Source of the DNA: Halocalculus aciditolerans
Lineage (GTDB): Archaea > Halobacteriota > Halobacteria > Halobacteriales > Halobacteriaceae
Reading direction: 5' to 3'
DNA length: 64,000 nucleotides
NCBI RefSeq assembly: GCF_014647475.1
Contig: NZ_BMPG01000002.1
Location: forward strand, 744,001-808,000
The position numbers and the translations under genes are program-made. The notes beneath the pieces are model-generated. The model saw only the letters and a program-made list of their open reading frames with translations, was not told where the DNA came from and did no database searches. Positions within the stretch are counted from its first letter, which is position 1, and the number at the start of each line of letters is the position of its first letter. Positions 2,766 to 16,075 of this stretch are shown here, piece by piece.

Positions 2766-4315
2766 GCGAGAGTTACGGCGCGACGGGCGAACAGAACATC
2801 GTCACCGACACGACGGCCGCCGACCGACTCGCCGTCATCCCCGTCGTGTTCGGCGCGCTCGCGTTCATCGCCGGTTGGGCGATACTCTTCCGCTGGGTGA
2901 CCGTCACCGACACCCTCGGCGGCATCGAGTACGCGACGCTCATCGCCGGCGGCCACCTCGTCGCCGCCGCCGTGCTGCTCGCCATCGGCGCGCTGTCCGC
3001 GATCGATGTCATCGACAACAACCCCGACGACGCCGTCGGCGTCGTCACCGCCGGTATCTACGGGGCGTTCGCGTTCATCGCGGTCGGCCTCACCGTCTCG
3101 CAGACCCTCTCGATGACGGCGCTCGCGTGGTTCCCCGCGGGCCTCCTCGCCGCCGTCGTCGTCTCGGCCGTCGCGCTCTTCCTCCCGGAGGACCTCGGCG
3201 TCACCCTCCCGGTCGCGGCGTTCGAAGCGCTCGCCGGTCTGGTCGTCTTCACCGGCGTCATCGGGCCGCAGTGGGTGTGGAGTCCGGAGGGGTTCTCCGC
3301 GTCCTTCATCGGCCCCATCGCCATCGCCACGTTCGCGATGGTCGGCAGCCTCCTCACCGTCTGGGCGGGGACGAACGCCTACCGCGGGTTCGGCGCTCGC
3401 GGCCGCGAATCCGGCGCGTACACGCTCATCGCCGTGTACGCCGTCGCGCTCCTCGGGGTTCTCGCCCTCCTCATCATCTTCGTCGTCCAGAAGGGCATGG
3501 GGAAGGTCCTCGAAGGCGCGCAGCTCTGGCCGTTCAAACTCCCGTTCGTCCTGAACGGCTACGGGCTCGAGTACGACGTCAACGGCATCTTCCCGGCAAT
3601 CGTGGGGACCGTCTGGCTCGTCGTCGGCGCGTGCGTGTTCGCCGTGCCGCTCGCCGTCGGCGCTGCCGTCTTCCTCACCGAGTACGCCGAACAGGGCCGC
3701 TTCACGCGCGTCGTCGAGACCGCGACGAACGGCCTGTGGAGCACGCCGAGCATCGTCTACGGTCTCTTCGCGTTCGCGTTCCTCCTGCCGCGCATCGAGA
3801 ACCAGGAGACGCTCCTCACCGGCCAGCTCGTCCTCGGGTTCATGCTGATGCCGCTCGTCCTCATCACGAGCCGGGAAGCGCTCCAGAACGTCCCGGACGA
3901 GTACCGCGACGCGAGCGCCGCGCTCGGCGTCTCGAAGTGGCAGACGATTCGGAGCGTCGTGCTCCCCGCCGCCATCCCCGGCGTCCTCACCGGCGTCATC
4001 CTCGGCGTCGGCCGCATCGCCGGTGAGACCGCGCCCATCCTCCTCGTCCTCGTCCGCGAGCCGTTCCCGGCGGTCGCGACGAACGTCCTCGGCTCGTTCC
4101 ACTTCACGGCCTCCGCGCCGTTCGTCGTGAACGACGCGCTCCTCAGCTCGACGACCGCGCTCCCCTACCAGCTCTTCGCCGTCATCACCGCCGGCGTCGG
4201 CGCGAGCCAGGAGTTCGGCTGGGGGACCGCGCTCGTCCTCCTGCTCGTCGTCATGTTCTTCTACACCATCGGTATCACCACGCGAATCTACTTCCGGAAG
4301 AAGCTCCGCCAATGA
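2762..4315 (+). CDS. pstA: Phosphate ABC transporter permease PstA, long haloarchaeal form
   Basis: Second permease of the importer, 517 aa against roughly 280-300 aa for typical bacterial PstA. The extra length is N-terminal: residues about 20-200 hold several additional hydrophobic segments before the transport domain. The C-terminal half has the EAA loop ([20 protein letters not shown]) and [12 protein letters not shown], paralleling PstC. Start ATG 2762 overlaps the pstC stop by four bases, and its own stop overlaps the pstB start the same way. The role of the extension is unknown; an assembly or regulatory function would be guesswork. Confidence 0.92.
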
Positions 4316-9555: not shown

Positions 9556-10197
9556 TCAGGCGTCGGGGGTCTCGTGGCGCGCGAGCTCGAGCGTGTCGGG
9601 GTCGAGGTGGTAGTAGGACTCCCACGCGGGCGCGAGCGTGACGACGCGCGTCGCTCCGAACGCGCTCTCGGTGTGTTCGTGGTGGTGGCCGACGAGGCAG
9701 AGGTCGGGTTCGAGCGCGCGGAGGATGTCGTCGACGTGCCCGTTCCCGACGTCGTAGTCCTCGTCGACGGGCGTGCCGTGCGGGGCTTCGTGCGCGAGGA
9801 AGACGTCGACGTCCCCGAGGTGTTTCGCGCGTTCGACGTCCGCGCGGATGAAGTGCCGGCGGCGCTCGCCGACGAGCGCGCGGCGGGGTTTCTCGTACTG
9901 CGTCGGGGCGTAGTTCCCGGAGAGGCCGGCGACGGTGACGCCTTCGACGTCGACGGTGATGCTGTCGAGGAGTCGGACGTTGTGGACGTCGCTGCTCTCG
10001 ATGCGGCCGTGGCGGAGCGCGTCGATGACGTCGAAGTCCTCGTTGTTCCCCGCGACGAAGTAGGTGAGCTCGGGGAGGTCGTAGTAGTAGAGGTCGCCGG
10101 CCTGGATGGCGACGTCGGCGTCGCTCGCGCGGTAGGCGGCGAAGAGCGCGCGCCGCCGGTCGGGGTCGTTCGCGTGGGCGTCGCCGAGGACCAACAC
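9556..10197 (-). CDS. Calcineurin-like metallophosphoesterase
   Basis: 213-aa phosphoesterase with the five-block metal-binding signature: GDAHAN at residues 5-10, GDLYYYD, GNNED, LAHEAPHG and GHHHEHTE. A two-metal phosphatase or nuclease activity is expected; the substrate cannot be inferred. It starts at GTG 10195-10197: a very clear TATA box (minus-strand GGTTTTATTTGG, 10219-10231) lies 28 bases upstream, and no ATG is in a better position. This makes it a good example of a leaderless GTG start. It diverges from the lysine operon. Confidence 0.87.
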   Translation of the reverse strand: MLVLGDAHANDPDRRRALFAAYRASDADVAIQAGDLYYYDLPELTYFVAGNNEDFDVIDALRHGRIESSDVHNVRLLDSITVDVEGVTVAGLSGNYAPTQYEKPRRALVGERRRHFIRADVERAKHLGDVDVFLAHEAPHGTPVDEDYDVGNGHVDDILRALEPDLCLVGHHHEHTESAFGATRVVTLAPAWESYYHLDPDTLELARHETPDA

Positions 10198-10280
10198 GAC
10201 GGAGTGTCCGCGACCGATCCAAATAAAACCGCCCGACCGGCGAGCGGCGGCCCCGGGCGAGTTTTGGCCGCGTCCACAGA

Positions 10281-10289
10281 CTTATACTC
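10281..10289 (+). promoter_or_regulatory. TATA box of the lysine operon
   Basis: CTTATACTC is the only clear TATA element between the metallophosphoesterase and dapA. Transcription would start near 10311, giving dapA a leader of about 166 bases, unusually long for this window. Confidence 0.5.
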
Positions 10290-10310
10290 GTCCGCGGCCA
10301 TCGAACGTGT

Positions 10311-10388
10311 ATGCTCGGCACGCGCGCACGGCGGACGTCGGTCGTCGCGAGTGTCGACCGCGTCGCGAGCAAACGCGGTAAACGCTAG
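10311..10388 (+). CDS. Possible 25-codon leader peptide ahead of dapA
   Basis: An ATG lies exactly 27 bases after the TATA box, the leaderless spacing, and opens a 25-codon frame ending at TAG 10386-10388. The predicted peptide is strongly basic: six Arg and two Lys, with the end SKRGKR. This is unlike the acidic proteome of this organism. Lys codons (AAA) occupy the third- and sixth-last sense positions region just before a hairpin. A Lys-sensing leader peptide is an attractive but unproven idea; chance is a real alternative for so short a frame. Confidence 0.3.
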   Translation: MLGTRARRTSVVASVDRVASKRGKR

Positions 10389-10402
10389 TTCTCTCTGGCT
10401 TC

Positions 10403-10425
10403 GGGCGGGGGTCGCGCCCCGTCCC
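10403..10425 (+). promoter_or_regulatory. Hairpin in the dapA leader with an alternative pairing
   Basis: GGG(C)GGGG at 10403-10410 can pair with CCCC(GT)CCC at 10417-10425. An exclusive alternative pairs GGGCG at 10403-10407 with CGCCC at 10415-10419. It lies 15 bases after the stop of the small leader ORF and about 50 bases before dapA. Competing stems suit an attenuator-like switch, but this is only a folding argument. Confidence 0.3.
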
Positions 10426-10476
10426 TGGCCGTTCTCGTGCCCGGCTTTCGAGTACCCACGAACCCACCACACACAC

Positions 10477-11361
10477 ATGCAAGACGTTACGTCCGGGGTC
10501 TTCCCGGCTATCACGACGCCCTTCGGAGCGGACGGCAGTATCGACCACGACCAACTCGCGGCGCACGCGCAGTTCCTCGAAGACCGCGGCGTCGACGGCG
10601 TCGTGCCGGCGGGGTCGACGGGGGAGTCGGCGACGCTCACGCACGACGAGCACGTCGACGTCGTCGAGACCGTCGTCGAGGCGGTTGACATCCCCGTCAT
10701 CGCGGGCGCTGGCAGTAACTCGACGCGGGAAGCCATCTCGCTCTCCGAGCGCGCGGCGGACGCGGGCGCGGACGCCCTCCTCCTCATCAGCCCCTACTAC
10801 AACAAGCCGGAGCCCGCGGGGATGGAGGCGCACTATCGGGCGGTCGCGGACGCGGTCGACCTCCCGCAGATCGTCTACAACGTCCCGAGTCGAACGGGGA
10901 GAAACATCGACGTGGAGACGGCGGTGTCGCTCGCCGGGCACGAGAATGTCGTCGGGTACAAGGCGGCGAGCGGCGACCTCGGCCGCGTGAGCGAGGTCGT
11001 GGAGCGCACGCGAGACGAGGAGTTCGCGGTGCTCGCGGGCGACGACGGGCTGACGCTCCCCATCATGTCCGTGGGCGGGACGGGCGTCATCAGCGTCGCG
11101 GCGAACGTCGAGCCGGCGCGGATGGTCGACCTCGTCGAGCTCGCGGCGGCCGACGAGTACGCGGCGGCGCGCGACGTCCACCACGAGCTCGGCGAGCTCT
11201 GCCGCGCGCTCTTCGTGGAGACGAACCCGATTCCGGTGAAGGAGGCGGTCGCGATTCGCGGCCACGGCTCGGGCGAGCTCCGCCAGCCGCTCACGCGGCT
11301 GAGCGAGGAGCACCGCGAGTACCTCGAAGGCGTGCTCGCCGACCTGGAGGGCGACGCGTGA
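10477..11361 (+). CDS. dapA: 4-hydroxy-tetrahydrodipicolinate synthase
   Basis: Condenses aspartate semialdehyde with pyruvate at the first committed step of lysine synthesis (294 aa, TIM barrel). Family features are present: PAGSTGESATLTHDEH (about 44-59), the catalytic Tyr in SPYYNKPEP and QIVYNVPSRTG, and the Schiff-base Lys in VVGYKAASGD. The ATG at 10477 gives the standard N-terminus (QDVTSGVFPAITTPF). It is the first enzyme gene of a six-gene operon; its stop overlaps the GTG start of dapB by four bases. Confidence 0.95.
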   Translation: MQDVTSGVFPAITTPFGADGSIDHDQLAAHAQFLEDRGVDGVVPAGSTGESATLTHDEHVDVVETVVEAVDIPVIAGAGSNSTREAISLSERAADAGADALLLISPYYNKPEPAGMEAHYRAVADAVDLPQIVYNVPSRTGRNIDVETAVSLAGHENVVGYKAASGDLGRVSEVVERTRDEEFAVLAGDDGLTLPIMSVGGTGVISVAANVEPARMVDLVELAAADEYAAARDVHHELGELCRALFVETNPIPVKEAVAIRGHGSGELRQPLTRLSEEHREYLEGVLADLEGDA

Positions 11362-12122
11362 GAGTCGGCGTGACCGGCGCGACCGGCCGAATGGGCCGCG
11401 AAATCCTCGCGGAGGCCAGTGAGCGCGGCGTCGACGTGGCGTTCGCGGTGAACCGCGGCGACGGCCACGGCGACGTCGCGGGCGTCGACGTCGAGCCGGC
11501 GGACGACTTCCCCGACCTGCTCGCCGAGCGCGCGCCGGACGTCGTCGTGGACTTCACGGGGCCGGTGTCGAGCGTCGAGTACGTCCGCGCCTGCGCGGAC
11601 GCCGGCGTCCCGGTCGTCGTCGGGACGACCGGGTTCTCCGACGCCCAGCTCGACGAGCTGCAGTCGTACGGCGACGACGCGCCGGTGCTCGTCGGCGCGA
11701 ACTTCTCGCGGGGGATTCAGGCGCTCCGGCAGGCCGTCCAGTCGGCCGTCGGCTCCCTCCCCGAGTACGACGTCGAGGTGACGGAGACGCACCACAACCG
11801 CAAGCGCGACGCTCCGTCGGGGACGGCGAAAGTCCTCCTCGACGCGGTGGACGACGCGCGGAACCGGGACGCGGAGCGCGTGCACGGCCGCGAGGGCGAC
11901 CAGCCCCGCGAAGAAGGCGAAATCGGCGTGCACGCACGGCGGGCGGGCGACGTCACCGGCGAGCACGAAGTCCTGCTCGCGGGGAACGACGAGGTACTGG
12001 AACTCACCCATCGCGCGGGGAGCCGCGGCGTGTTCGCGGCGGGCGCGCTCGACGCGGCGGAGTGGCTGACGACGGCGGACGCGGGCTTCTATCGGTTCAC
12101 GGAGGTAGCTGCACGACTATGA
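11358..12122 (+). CDS. dapB: 4-hydroxy-tetrahydrodipicolinate reductase
   Basis: NAD(P)H-dependent reductase (254 aa) making tetrahydrodipicolinate. The N-terminal Rossmann motif GATGRMGREI (about 7-16) and the family segments VVVGTTGFSD, GANFSRGIQ and EVTETHHNRKRDAPSGTA are intact; the last carries the catalytic His/Lys pair. The start is GTG 11358, sharing GTGA with the dapA stop. Its own stop overlaps the dapD start as ATGA, so it sits in a translationally coupled run. Confidence 0.95.
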   Translation: MRVGVTGATGRMGREILAEASERGVDVAFAVNRGDGHGDVAGVDVEPADDFPDLLAERAPDVVVDFTGPVSSVEYVRACADAGVPVVVGTTGFSDAQLDELQSYGDDAPVLVGANFSRGIQALRQAVQSAVGSLPEYDVEVTETHHNRKRDAPSGTAKVLLDAVDDARNRDAERVHGREGDQPREEGEIGVHARRAGDVTGEHEVLLAGNDEVLELTHRAGSRGVFAAGALDAAEWLTTADAGFYRFTEVAARL

Positions 12123-12952
12123 CACTGGAATCCGAGATTCGAGACCTGCAGGAACGACGCGAGAACGACGAGGTTTCGGCGGCGACGGCGAGCGCCGACG
12201 ACCTGGACACGCTGGACGCGTTCCTCGAAGCGCTGGAGGCGGGCGAGGTCCGGGCGGCCGAGAAGACCGGCGGCGAGTGGTCGGCCGTCGAGTGGGTGAA
12301 GGAGGGCATCCTCCTGAACTTCGCGCTCCGGGAGACGGAGGCGCGAGAGTACGGCGGCGTGACCTACCACGACGTCCTGCCGCTCCGCGAGACGAGCGAC
12401 CTCGCGGAGCGCGGCACGCGGAACACCCCCGATGGAACGACGATTCGCCGCGGCGCGTACGTCGGCGGCGACGCGATTCTGATGTCGCCGGCGTTCGTGA
12501 ACATCGGCGCGCGCGTCGGCGACGGCACGCTCGTCGACTCCTGTGACACCGTCGGCTCCTGCGCGCAAATCGGGAGCGACGTCAAGCTGGGCGCGAACAC
12601 GCTCATCGGCGGCGTGCTCGAACCCGTCGAGTCCGCGCCGGTCGTCGTCGAGGACAACGTCTCGCTCGGCGCGGGCTGTCGCGTGACGTCCGGATTCGTC
12701 GTCGGCGAGAACTCGGTCGTCGGCGAGAACACGCTCCTCTCGCCGCGCATCCCCGTCTACGACCTCGTCGAGGACGAAGTCGTCTACGGCGAGCTGCCCG
12801 CGAACCGCCGGGCGTTCGCGCGGATGGTCGAGTCCTCCGCGAGCGACCACGACCTGATTCCGGGGCAGGCGTACAAGCCGGCGGTCGTGGCGACGGGCCT
12901 GGAGACGAGCACGCTCGAAGCGAGCCAGCGCGAGGAGGCGCTCCGCGAGTGA
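12119..12952 (+). CDS. dapD: 2,3,4,5-tetrahydropyridine-2,6-dicarboxylate N-succinyltransferase
   Basis: Left-handed beta-helix acyltransferase (277 aa) that succinylates tetrahydrodipicolinate. The N-terminal helical domain is followed by RRGAYVGGDAILMSPAFVN (about 116-134) and imperfect hexapeptide repeats up to about residue 225. The presence of dapD and dapE indicates the succinylase branch of the lysine pathway, rather than the direct dehydrogenase or LL-DAP aminotransferase routes. ATG 12119 overlaps the dapB stop; its stop overlaps the lysA GTG start. Confidence 0.93.
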   Translation: MTLESEIRDLQERRENDEVSAATASADDLDTLDAFLEALEAGEVRAAEKTGGEWSAVEWVKEGILLNFALRETEAREYGGVTYHDVLPLRETSDLAERGTRNTPDGTTIRRGAYVGGDAILMSPAFVNIGARVGDGTLVDSCDTVGSCAQIGSDVKLGANTLIGGVLEPVESAPVVVEDNVSLGAGCRVTSGFVVGENSVVGENTLLSPRIPVYDLVEDEVVYGELPANRRAFARMVESSASDHDLIPGQAYKPAVVATGLETSTLEASQREEALRE

Positions 12953-14169
12953 CGACTCGCAGACTCGACGACTGGTCGGCGCGCGACCTCCGCGCGGTCG
13001 CGGCCGAGCACGGCACGCCGACGTACGTCCAGGACCTCGACCGGGTGCGAGCGAACTATGAGCGCCTCGACGACGCGTTCCCGGACGCGCGCATCCACTA
13101 CGCGGTGAAGGCGAACGCCGGCCGCGCCGTCCTCAAAGCCCTCCGGGAGGTCGATGCAGGAGCGGAAGCGGCCTCCGCGGGCGAGGTCGCGCGGGCGCTC
13201 GACGCGGGGTTCGACCCGAGCGAGATCCACTACACGCCGGTGAATCCGCCGGACCGCGACCTCGACCCTATCCTGAACGGGCCGACGTCGGGGCTCACGG
13301 TTACGGTCGGCTCTCGTGACCTCCTCGACCGCCTCGACGCGCGCGGGTTCGACGGCCGGGTCTGCCTCCGCGTCCACCCGGGCGTGGGCGCGGGCCACAG
13401 CGAGGACGTGGCGACGGGCGCGGACGCGAAGTTCGGCGTGCCGGCCGAGGACGCGACGACGGTGCTTCGCGAGGCGGACGCCCGCGGGTTCGACGTCGTC
13501 GGCGTGCACGCGCACGTCGGGAGCGGGATGCTCACCGAGGAGGACGTCGAAGCGCACCGCGAGGTCGTCGAGGTCATCGCCGGCATCGCGCGCGACTCCC
13601 CCGTGGACTTGGAGTTCGTGGACGTCGGCGGCGGGTTCGGCGTCCCCTACCGCGAGTCGGAGGAGGCGCTGGACCTCGACGCAGTCGCGAACGCGACGCG
13701 GGACGCGCTCGCGGACGTGGACGCCGACCTCGTCGTCGAGCCGGGCCGGTATCTCGTCGCTGACGCGGGCGTCCTCCTCGCGGAGGTCGTGTCGACGAAA
13801 CCGACGGGCGACGCGGTGGTCGCGGGCGCGGACGCCGGGATGACGGAGCTCCTGCGGCCGGCGCTCTACGACGCCTACCACCCGATTCGGTCGCTGGCGC
13901 GCGACGCCCACGACCGCCCCACGAGGACGGTGACGGTCGTCGGCCCGGTCTGTGAGTCGACGGACGTCCTCGCGGACGCGCGCGACCTCCCGCGGCCGGC
14001 GGTCGGCGACCTGCTCGCCGTCGGGAACGCCGGCGCGTACGGCATCGAGATGGCGAGCAACTACACGTCGCGGCCGCGCCCGCCCGTCGTCGCGGTCGAG
14101 GGCGACGACACACGGATAGTCCGCGAGCGCGAAACGATGGACGACCTGCTGCGGTTCGAGCGAGACTAA
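12949..14169 (+). CDS. lysA: Diaminopimelate decarboxylase
   Basis: PLP enzyme (406 aa) that decarboxylates meso-diaminopimelate to lysine. The PLP lysine is in HYAVKANAG (about residue 49), followed by the barrel motifs HAHVGSGM, VDVGGGFGVPY and EPGRYLVADAG, and the C-terminal GPVCESTD with the substrate-binding Cys. It starts at GTG 12949, overlapping the dapD stop (GTGA). Unusually, lysA is placed before dapF and dapE, although its enzyme acts last. The stop overlaps dapF (TAATG). Confidence 0.95.
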   Translation: MTTRRLDDWSARDLRAVAAEHGTPTYVQDLDRVRANYERLDDAFPDARIHYAVKANAGRAVLKALREVDAGAEAASAGEVARALDAGFDPSEIHYTPVNPPDRDLDPILNGPTSGLTVTVGSRDLLDRLDARGFDGRVCLRVHPGVGAGHSEDVATGADAKFGVPAEDATTVLREADARGFDVVGVHAHVGSGMLTEEDVEAHREVVEVIAGIARDSPVDLEFVDVGGGFGVPYRESEEALDLDAVANATRDALADVDADLVVEPGRYLVADAGVLLAEVVSTKPTGDAVVAGADAGMTELLRPALYDAYHPIRSLARDAHDRPTRTVTVVGPVCESTDVLADARDLPRPAVGDLLAVGNAGAYGIEMASNYTSRPRPPVVAVEGDDTRIVRERETMDDLLRFERD

Positions 14170-14996
14170 TGACGACCACACCATACACTCTCTATCACGG
14201 CACGAGCAACGATTTCGCGGTCGTCGACGCCGCGAACCACGTCCCCGACCGCGCGGCGTTCGCACAGCGCGTCTGCGCCGACCTCGGCGTCGACGGCGTG
14301 CTCTTCCTCGCGCTCCAAGACGAGTACGAGCCGCCGCGCTGCGTGATGACGCTCGTCCAGCCGGACGGCTCGACGGCGGCGATGTGCGGGAACGGCGCGC
14401 GCTGTGCGGCGCGCTGGGTGACCGAGCAGACCGGCGAGTCCGAGGTGATGCTCGACACGCAGGCGGGCACGCGGCGGTCCACGGTGGACGGCGCGCACGT
14501 CGTCGTGGAGATGGGCGTCCCCGACTTCGCCCCGGACGCGGTCCCGGTGCGCGGCGACGCGCCGATGGACGGCGACGTCCTGAACGGCTACGCCATCACG
14601 GCGGTGAACACGGGCGTGCCGCACGCGGTGACGTTCGTCGAGGACGTCGACGCGGTGGACGTCGAGGGCGACGCGCCGCCGGTTCGGAGCCACGAGCGCT
14701 TCCCGGCGGGCGCGAACGTGACGTTCGCAGAAGAGACCGAGTGGGGGTTCGCACAGCGGACGTTCGAGCGCGGCGTCGAGGGCGAGACGCAGTCCTGCGG
14801 GACGGGCGCGGTCGCGGTCGCGGCGGTCGCGGCGCGCCACGGCCGCGTTCCGGGCGACGCGACGGTGACGGTCGCGCCGCCGGGCGGCGAGCTCGAAGTC
14901 TCGCTCACGCCGGGCGGTCGCGCGACGCTCGCCGGGCCGACCGAGCGCGTCCGCGACGGCGAAGCCGAAACGGAGCCGCGGGTACCGAAGCGATGA
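14169..14996 (+). CDS. dapF: Diaminopimelate epimerase
   Basis: PLP-independent epimerase (275 aa) converting LL- to meso-diaminopimelate. Both catalytic cysteines are present in their usual contexts: MCGNGARCAARWV (about 74-86) and SCGTGAVAVAA (about 212-222), along with NDFAVVD near the N-terminus. The ATG shares its first base with the lysA stop codon. The final ATGA overlaps dapE. Confidence 0.94.
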   Translation: MTTTPYTLYHGTSNDFAVVDAANHVPDRAAFAQRVCADLGVDGVLFLALQDEYEPPRCVMTLVQPDGSTAAMCGNGARCAARWVTEQTGESEVMLDTQAGTRRSTVDGAHVVVEMGVPDFAPDAVPVRGDAPMDGDVLNGYAITAVNTGVPHAVTFVEDVDAVDVEGDAPPVRSHERFPAGANVTFAEETEWGFAQRTFERGVEGETQSCGTGAVAVAAVAARHGRVPGDATVTVAPPGGELEVSLTPGGRATLAGPTERVRDGEAETEPRVPKR

Positions 14997-16075
14997 CCGA
15001 CGCCGAGTTCGACCCGGTCGCCTTCCTCGAAGCCGGCGTCCGCATCGACTCCACGGCGCGCGTCGACGAGATGCGGCGGTTCGTCCGGGAGACGCTCGGC
15101 GAGCACGGCGTCGAATCCCGCGTCGACGACGCCGGGAACCTCCTCGCGTCGAAAGGTGACGGCGGTGACGGCGACGGCGGCGGTGTCCTCCTGAACACGC
15201 ATCTGGACACCGTGCCGCCGCACGTGCCGTTCGCGCGCGACGACGGGAGGGTTCGCGGCCGCGGCTCCTGTGACGCAATCGGGCCGATGGCCGCGATGCT
15301 CGCGGCGTTCCTCGCGGCGGACGACGACGCGGCCGTGACGCTCGCGCTCACGCCGGACGAGGAGACGAACTCCACGGGGGCGGCCGCACTCGACCTCGAC
15401 GCGGACTGCGTCGTCGTCGGCGAACCCACGGGTCTCGACCGCTGCACGGCGGCCCGCGGGCGCTTCCAGGCGACCGTTTCGGTTACTGGAACGGCGGCGC
15501 ACGCGGCGGAGCCGGAGAGCGGCGCGAGCGCGATTCAGGGCGCTCGACGCGCCCTCGAAGCCCTCGAAACCTACGACGGCGAGCGCGGACCGAGCCCGCA
15601 CCCCGTGCTCGGCGCGCCGACGCTCACCGCGACGACCATCGAGGGCGGGAACGCGACGAACCAGGTGCCCGCGGAGTGCTCGTTCGTCGTCGACCGCCGG
15701 ACCGTCCCTCCGGAGTCCGCGGGCGCGTTCTTCGACGGGCTGCGCGCGCACCTCCGCGCCGCCGTCCCCGACGCCCTCGGCGTCGAGGTCACGCCCGCCG
15801 AGCGCGACACGCCCTTCCTCGAAGCCTTCGCGACGGACCGCGACGAGAGAGTGGTGAACGCGCTCGGTGACGCGGGCGCGGGCCGGATTCGCCCCTTTAC
15901 CGCCGCGACGGAGGCTTCCTACTTCGCGGCGGACGCCCCGACGGTCGTCTTCGGTCCCGGCGTGCTCGCCGACGACGAGGGCGCAGTCGCGCACGCCGAC
16001 CGCGAGTACGTCGACGCCGCGGCCGTCGAAGACGCCGCCGCGATACTCACGGACGCTGTCGACGCGCTCGCCTGA
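14993..16075 (+). CDS. dapE: M20 peptidase, probably succinyl-diaminopimelate desuccinylase
   Basis: Zn-dependent M20 hydrolase (360 aa). Metal and catalytic residues appear in order: NTHLDTVPP, GRGSCDAIGPMAAML, and the EE pair in LTPDEETNSTGA. A dimerisation domain follows (TVSVTGTAAHAAEPESGASA, then GGNATNQVPAECSFVVDRR). M20 enzymes vary in substrate, but its position as the last gene of the dap operon, overlapping dapF by four bases, makes succinyl-DAP the likely substrate. It ends directly against a convergent histidine kinase gene. Confidence 0.88.
   Translation: MTDAEFDPVAFLEAGVRIDSTARVDEMRRFVRETLGEHGVESRVDDAGNLLASKGDGGDGDGGGVLLNTHLDTVPPHVPFARDDGRVRGRGSCDAIGPMAAMLAAFLAADDDAAVTLALTPDEETNSTGAAALDLDADCVVVGEPTGLDRCTAARGRFQATVSVTGTAAHAAEPESGASAIQGARRALEALETYDGERGPSPHPVLGAPTLTATTIEGGNATNQVPAECSFVVDRRTVPPESAGAFFDGLRAHLRAAVPDALGVEVTPAERDTPFLEAFATDRDERVVNALGDAGAGRIRPFTAATEASYFAADAPTVVFGPGVLADDEGAVAHADREYVDAAAVEDAAAILTDAVDALA

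Follow-up and report, generated by a model that had tools for sequence, protein, structure and literature searches.

In Halocalculus aciditolerans, the mRNA of the lysine operon is likely, with a probability of about 0.77, to carry at its 5' end a ribosome-mediated attenuator that senses shortage of tRNA-Lys; this reading rests on sequence evidence, without expression data. It is carried by features that are conserved among haloarchaea, namely a short leader frame upstream of dapA, the Lys codons near its end, the choice of those codons, their spacing to a following hairpin (P2), covariation within P2 and the spacing of the promoter, with usually one such element per genome.

Architecture of the dapA leader

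The window, i.e. the whole stretch of 64,000 nucleotides that was analysed, is part of the 3.38 Mb haloarchaeal genome G000, and the coordinates of its relevant features are collected in Table 1. The genes dapA, dapB, dapD, lysA, dapF and dapE are arranged consecutively in this order at 10477-16075, and all of them score above the cut-off of their NCBIfam model. The same dap cluster is named for Natrinema gari in PMC10433800, where regulation is not mentioned in the sections bearing on the cluster.

Table 1. Features of the lysine operon leader and of the genes downstream (positions in the window)
Feature	Position	Strand	Basis and remarks
TATA box TTATAC	10282-10287	+	sequence; ~27 nt 5' of the leader ATG
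Leader frame (uORF), 25 codons, MLGTRARRTSVVASVDRVASKRGKR and stop	10311-10388	+	ATG at 10311
First control codon AAA (Lys21)	10371-10373	+	sequence, relatives
Second control codon AAA (Lys24)	10380-10382	+	sequence, relatives
Leader stop TAG	10386-10388	+	sequence
Hairpin P2	10397-10430	+	fold and match to covariance model R1 (10387-10441, 36.9 bits)
Spacer from P2 to dapA	10431-10476	+	relatives: C-rich, G-poor towards dapA, without TATA box
dapA, 4-hydroxy-tetrahydrodipicolinate synthase, first lysine operon gene	10477-11361	+	TIGR00674 above cut-off
dapB	11358-12122	+	TIGR00036 above cut-off
dapD	12119-12952	+	NF008808 above cut-off; start inferred from ATG 12119 (scanned frame 12062-12952)
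lysA	12949-14169	+	TIGR01048 above cut-off
dapF	14169-14996	+	TIGR00652 above cut-off
dapE	14993-16075	+	NF006402 above cut-off; start inferred (scanned frame 14384-16075, match from residue 208)

An earlier, sequence-only reading had described a TATA box, a frame of 25 codons whose peptide contains six Arg and two Lys and terminates in SKRGKR, and two AAA codons near the stop, and all of these held when the sequence was inspected. The distance from the TATA box to the leader ATG places the predicted start of transcription at the frame itself, and the leader frame is therefore predicted to be leaderless, lying at the very 5' end of the mRNA; the start site is inferred from this spacing. The adjoining upstream frame (9556-10197, with a weak, sub-cut-off phosphodiesterase match) runs on the opposite strand, so that the leader is not the tail of an upstream operon.

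The hairpin that had been placed within 15 bases of the stop also held: P2 begins 8 nt past the leader stop and is kept in relatives. In the window it reads GGCU-UC-GGGCGGGG-GUCGCG-CCCCGUCC-CU-GGCC, with an outer stem of 10397-10400 paired with 10427-10430, an inner stem of 10403-10410 paired with 10417-10424 and a loop at 10411-10416. The first base of the Lys24 codon lies 32 nt from the loop reference point (10412). A 38-nt hairpin segment (fold z -2.51) was the sole segment of the window to stand out in folding tests; both the leader at 10311-10480 (z -0.18) and the part at 10389-10480 (z -0.60) folded unremarkably compared with shuffles. These tests on the window alone are weak, and the case therefore rests on relatives. 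A search of 10100-10700 against Rfam 15 with E values up to 1 returned only mir-790, far below its gathering score, and a lysine riboswitch or other known RNA was rejected for want of an above-chance match in this region.

Lys codons and promoter position in relatives

Stretches upstream of dapA were collected from 24 family loci and from 80 loci of named class members. After removal of the duplicates L018, L019, L020, L023 and L024 and of L077, which has no hairpin, 99 distinct leaders including that of the window were scored. Leader starts were picked automatically on the basis of position, frame and upstream A/T content, giving frames of 16-51 codons; an overlong start was taken in a few leaders, e.g. 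L012, L029 and L079. With this automatic pick, Lys was found within the last 16 codons of the frame in 98 of the 99 leaders. For L100 the pick chose a different frame, and another ATG gives the Lys-ending frame MTEARAF...KRAKRGLVGSLRA. The N-terminal parts of the leader peptides vary between genera, and the frames end, for example, in FSKKRA (Halorubrum), GKRTKRAA (Haladaptatus) or SKRKRV directly before the stop; Halobacterium leaders carry GKRKR followed by further residues, ending in GKRKRSTADTHGSLRA.

Codon choice at these lysines is the reverse of that in the operon's first gene, with AAA and AAG counting 171 and 22 in the leaders vs 11 and 226 in 80 dapA genes (Fisher p 2e-79, nominal as the sequences are related), in which Lys accounts for 237 of 22,400 codons. 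AAA makes up 31% of the Lys codons in 54 ilvB genes. The control codons can be called minority synonyms as regards their rarity only. The presence of 22 AAG codons in the leaders suggests that lysine itself, rather than a DNA motif, has been kept. In the critical stretch, AAA or AAG occurs in the leader's own frame in 98 of 99 leaders vs 44 and 44 in the other two frames, counts that are inflated by runs of A. This frame preference is indirect evidence that the leader is translated, which remains an inference, and the p-values of the frame and spacing tests ignore the relatedness of the sequences.

The distance from the first base of the last Lys codon to the P2 loop reference (the GT of GTRGC) was 28-32 nt in 80 of 98 leaders, with extremes of 23 and 38 nt, and the leader stop lies 16-22 nt 5' of the same reference in 80 of 99. 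In 12 of 99 leaders (L017, L021, L022, L025-L027, L042, L065, L068, L078, L106 and L112) the stop, TAG, falls within the P2 loop itself; in the remaining leaders the loop is mostly GTAGC or GTGGC despite the earlier stop, as if it held a former stop codon. A clade-specific complementarity was seen by eye in L028, L029 and L030 between GGGAAACGC around the Lys codon and GCGTTTCCC just before dapA.

Within the 60 nt that precede the leader frame start, 71 of 96 TATA-like words begin at -30 to -28, a spacing in relatives from which a leaderless transcript may again be inferred. A TATA-like box (5 of 7 A/T) is present at the frame start in 92 of 98 leaders; at dapA's own start such 5-of-7 A/T words were found in 15 of 98, no more commonly than at random positions (326 of 1960). 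The count at the frame is partly circular, because the start pick made use of upstream A/T content; the dapA and random-position controls are not. A start site close to dapA, or lack of conservation of the peptide and hairpin in relatives, had been named in advance as grounds for abandoning the attenuator reading. As far as a sequence check can tell, the former does not apply, TATA words being unenriched at dapA, and on the latter the Lys codons, the start, the hairpin and their spacing were found to recur across the Halobacteria.

Hairpins P2 and P1

P2 was examined in an alignment of 94 distinct segments (A1), and the covariance model R1 was built on a structure set by the author. In the unfitted alignment, 81.6% of cells pair compared with 79.2% in shuffles (0/500 as high) and 32 cells are changed on both sides compared with 12.8 (0/500); among the controls, one slid version has 39 both-side changes but pairs in just 57% of cells. 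When the alignment was fitted to the model, 88.3% of cells paired vs 84.3% in shuffles and 38-56% in slid versions, with 35 both-side changes vs 10.8 (0/500). For the raw MAFFT alignment A1, in which the outer stem of Halorubrum is shifted, no consensus structure was returned by RNAalifold. Single-sequence folding was carried out on 70 leaders, omitting 25 Halorubrum rows and L010, L054, L100 and L114, and gave a mean z of -2.28 for the P2 segment, with 67 of the 70 below -1. Within the loop, the GT and the GC of GTRGC each reach at least 90% in A1; L009, L010, L013, L014 and L047 deviate in the loop, and so does the window, at a single base; the window's own P2 is a divergent member.

The outer stem of P2 begins ~13 nt before the loop reference. 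If a ribosome is assumed to extend ~12 nt past its A site, one positioned at the last Lys codon ends just short of P2, and one at the stop usually covers the 5' arm. Folding with the corresponding bases masked gave mean outer-stem pairing of 0.60 with the ribosome on Lys, 0.57 with none and 0.00 with it on the stop (70 leaders); the last value is largely a product of the masking itself.

A further hairpin, P1, lies inside the frame before the Lys codons in many relatives. It was assessed in 67 leaders (L012, L029 and L061 also being left out), where the mean z against codon shuffles was -1.27, with 36 leaders below -1, 19 below -2 and one above +1. Its sequences differ among genera, and the median distance from its 3' end to the last Lys codon is 13 nt vs 5 in shuffles. 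P1 is not evident in the window, where z against dinucleotide shuffles is +0.73.

The sequence-only reading had further proposed two mutually exclusive pairings before dapA, which found no support: the pairing of GCCG (10428-10431) with CGGC (10442-10445) exists only on paper and is not conserved. From the 3' arm of P2 onward, relatives fold like shuffles (mean z -0.13; 12 of 70 below -1, 0 of 70 below -2), so no conserved alternative pairing was found. An alternative partner for the 3' arm, noted by eye in Halobacterium, L040 and L052, was dropped as a general feature because folding energies do not exceed those of shuffles. A T-rich tract at +18 to +60 after P2 was present in just 17 of 71 dapA leaders, vs 7 of 71 in an upstream control stretch, and the RNA before dapA in relatives is an A/C-rich stretch (C-rich, G-poor). 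An intrinsic terminator of hairpin and U-run was rejected, T-rich tracts occurring in only those 17 dapA leaders and in 15 of 54 ilvB leaders. The scarcity of T-rich tracts and the lack of a conserved alternative to P2 together indicate that a bacterial terminator/antiterminator switch is absent. The analogy drawn earlier with trp and his attenuators consequently held in its sensing half, with cognate and mostly minority codons and an in-frame hairpin in many relatives, and failed in its output half.

Distribution of the element

On the window R1 matches with an E value of 1e-4, the window itself being among the sequences used for model building. Applied to the window and 75 loci, R1 gave 75 matches in 75 of 76 sources, L077 being the exception; nearly all had been used in building. 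R1 also matched 20 of 20 upstream regions unused in model building, comprising 15 genomes without a hit and 5 controls, on the right strand and with E values of at most 0.0024 in this small search, and each of these regions also has a Lys-ending frame.

Within the family, 25 of 26 genomes have a dapA orthologue with the hairpin before it, and in the remaining genome, G013, neither the orthologue nor the hairpin was detected at the same standard. Across the class, R1 matched 168 of 194 genomes at an E value of 0.05, nine of them with two matches, and a dapA orthologue was found in 191 of 194. In all of the 120 genomes checked, the hairpin shares the strand of dapA and precedes the dapA match by 36-242 nt. 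The 26 class genomes without a hit comprise three without dapA, 16 with the element on closer look and seven left out of the follow-up. Those lacking dapA are G013, G114 and, as inferred from its absence in the match table, G196; none of the three is among the R1 matches. All 15 re-examined non-hits have the hairpin and a Lys frame, and G025, with an E value of 0.075, is the sixteenth. The re-examined 15 score 22.7-32.3 bits and unrelated places in whole genomes reach 28.1 bits; because of this overlap, these loci were counted by position and Lys frame. The element usually occurs once per genome, at dapA.

The metagenome-assembled L077 (around 2900-3020) has neither Lys codons nor hairpin, and its leader start apparently continues into the coding sequence of dapA; it is possibly a natural deletion or a misassembly.

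The ilvB leader and other amino-acid operons

A short frame ending in Ile-Val codons was found upstream of ilvB in 54 of 55 loci (L148 on G000:C1, reverse strand; L210-L233; L260-L288; the split copy of G003, L234, lies outside the count). The leader in the window's own genome is MQSRATRSGSPAASGAAVVAIIVGA followed by a stop. The frame occurs in 25 of 25 family loci, 23 of which end in IVGA or IVGV and two of which (L217, L219) have IRVR further from the stop, and in 29 of 30 loci of the class sample, the exception being L259. The Val control codon is GTA in 54 of 54 leaders, and within ilvB itself GTA accounts for 12 of 2694 Val codons; the leader pattern required GTA, and none of the 54 failed on it. 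GTA is preceded by ATT in 39 of the 54 leaders and by ATC in 13, vs ATT in 93 of the 1210 Ile codons of ilvB.

A hairpin, GTAGGGG...CCCCTAC, spans the ilvB control codons (mean z -2.62; 51 of 54 below -1), so that a stalled ribosome would block it, a geometry opposite to that at dapA. G is almost absent from the RNA downstream of this hairpin, at 3% from +20 to +29, and T-rich tracts are found in 15 of 54 leaders vs 20 of 54 in the upstream control stretch, which holds the TATA box. That the hairpins of dapA and ilvB share an ancestor is unsupported: R1, run on 31 of the 55 ilvB loci, gave no low-E match in the leader, the best match (E 0.079) lying in the coding part.

No such leader frame was seen before trpC (25 loci), trpD (26) or hisG (25) when 230-300 nt were inspected by eye, without a frame search, and their promoters appeared to lie directly at the gene; the pattern is therefore not general to haloarchaeal amino-acid genes. 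The trpC (L152-L176) and trpD (L180-L205) promoters carry TGTACA-type palindromes by eye, as for a DNA-binding tryptophan regulator, and a AAAACCTAGTTCC-like promoter box recurs by eye before hisG (L289-L313) in Halobacterium-like genomes.

At the leuA-like gene just upstream of ilvB (L239-L258), a frame of 23-24 codons (MSQHDIPGSSPGERVLPGHVSPQ and a stop in the window's own genome) was seen in 20 of 20 genomes; its ATG follows a TATA-like box by ~30 nt, and the frame is shifted by one base relative to that of LeuA. Between the last stop in the LeuA frame and the conserved EFFQGTLA or FFEGTLA, no in-frame ATG or GTG occurs in L240, L256, L257 and L258. Either +1 frameshifting near the conserved GTT CTT, perhaps controlled by leucine, or a nonstandard start is suggested by this.

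Proposed mechanism and alternative explanations

In the proposed mechanism, transcription would start at the leader ATG and a ribosome would load on the very 5' end of the mRNA. Near its end the frame has one to three Lys codons, most of them AAA, which is the less used Lys codon in dapA and ilvB. A shortage of charged tRNA-Lys would stall the ribosome at these codons with its leading edge just short of P2, which could then form; when lysine is plentiful, it would reach the stop and cover or melt the 5' arm of P2 before leaving. The state of P2 would set the output of dapA-dapE, with more produced under lysine shortage, through premature termination by FttA/aCPSF1 or through control of dapA translation or of RNA stability. 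The start site, translation of the leader, stalling, the direction of the response, the output step and the response to lysine are all inferred. The sensing half is well supported: two unrelated operons have cognate, minority, positionally fixed codons at a predicted 5' end. Such support is lacking for the output half, there being no conserved terminator tract or rival pairing and opposite geometry at dapA and ilvB. It has been hypothesised that factor-dependent archaeal termination by FttA polices coupling through steric exclusion with the ribosome (PMC11616081), and for this reason premature termination was inferred to be the most likely output.

One alternative is an arrest peptide, in which a nascent Lys-Arg chain would sense free lysine in the tunnel and stall the ribosome at or near the stop. 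A Lys-Arg run near the stop is found in most leaders, Arg often following Lys. However, apart mainly from the Lys and Lys-Arg residues, the peptide differs from genus to genus, and the last Lys may be followed directly by the stop or be separated from it by up to about a dozen codons, whereas the distance from the Lys codon to the hairpin is kept. The preference for AAA, and for GTA at ilvB, would moreover have no obvious meaning for a peptide sensor but is meaningful for a sensor of decoding rate, and the arrest peptide is considered unlikely. It is likewise unlikely that P2 is itself the regulator, its conserved loop (GTRGC in most genera) binding a protein or small molecule and the frame merely keeping ribosomes moving. 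Four loop positions at 90% or more in A1 are more than pairing needs, which speaks for this view, but it leaves unexplained the Lys codons, the choice of AAA, the spacing and the Ile-Val leader of ilvB; the loop also deviates in the five loci listed above and by one base in the window, and no Rfam family was above chance at 10100-10700.

Translational coupling or reinitiation, in which dapA, which has no Shine-Dalgarno sequence, would be supplied by ribosomes that finish the frame, at a rate tuned by stalling, is very unlikely. The A/C-rich, G-poor stretch before dapA would suit it, and termination-reinitiation has reportedly been described in archaea and bacteria. However, the gap between the hairpin model and the dapA match varies from 36 to 242 nt, and stalling at Lys would reduce dapA just when lysine is scarce, the opposite of what a biosynthetic operon requires. 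That the short frame may be due to chance, as had been allowed at the outset, with an ordinary promoter downstream of it and a fortuitous hairpin, is all but excluded. Although the window leader alone folds no better than shuffles, this explanation is rejected because frame and hairpin are conserved across the class, and there is no TATA box at dapA itself.

A bolder form of the attenuator reading, towards which the evidence leans by a narrow margin, is that leader-peptide attenuation is a general, undescribed mode of control on leaderless haloarchaeal mRNAs, of independent archaeal origin. It would cover the lysine operon (Lys AAA), ilvB (Ile ATT, Val GTA) and possibly leuA, whose out-of-frame leader of 23 codons, containing rare codons for Val and Leu, suggests frameshift control. 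Charging of tRNA would be sensed as in bacteria, and the readout would proceed without the bacterial intrinsic terminator, perhaps via FttA/aCPSF1.

Relation to known systems and significance

The trpL, hisL and ilvL/ilvB leaders are bacterial ribosome-mediated transcription attenuators. The haloarchaeal leader resembles them in its short frame, in minority codons for the operon's own amino acid, in a hairpin after these codons, in its place upstream of a biosynthetic operon and, in many relatives, in a hairpin inside the frame. It differs from them in that its frame is predicted to be leaderless and carries only one to three control codons near its end, and in that the dapA leader has no conserved terminator tract or antiterminator and its P2 is conserved in sequence. 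The bacterial lysine operon is known for control by a riboswitch (PMC5584792); this L box also lies upstream of dapA or other lysine genes, whereas the haloarchaeal element consists of a 34-nt hairpin and a frame. TnaC and the fungal AAP are nascent-peptide arrest leaders that stall for their ligands. They too sense an amino acid, but the haloarchaeal leader has no conserved peptide beyond the control residues and its codon choice is apparently selected.

In Haloferax volcanii, 16 uORFs have been described in 5' UTRs of 150-250 nt, all with a low isoelectric point (PMC4983044). They are likewise small (15-31 codons) and lie at the start of long leaders; the list has no entry labelled dapA or ilvB, and control codons, hairpins and attenuation are not discussed in the uORF section of that paper. 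Its Table 2 includes uORFs before pheS and the tryptophan-tRNA ligase gene, where attenuators with Phe or Trp codons are possible. No report of archaeal leader-peptide attenuation was found in the open-access literature searched, most subscription papers being outside its scope, nor in the relevant sections of PMC4983044, PMC10433800, PMC12482152, PMC8116511, PMC8576121, PMC11456600, PMC11481537 and PMC11616081.

Bacterial attenuators that work through ribosome stalling require transcription and translation to be coupled. In archaea such coupling is still argued from co-purification and microscopy (PMC8576121). If the proposed reading is true, a class-wide attenuator would provide a natural reporter of coupling in tractable haloarchaea such as Haloferax volcanii, the leader would offer a defined site at which to study archaeal premature termination, and the codon-choice theory of attenuation would become testable in another domain. 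A form of control long thought to be bacterial would then operate in haloarchaea.
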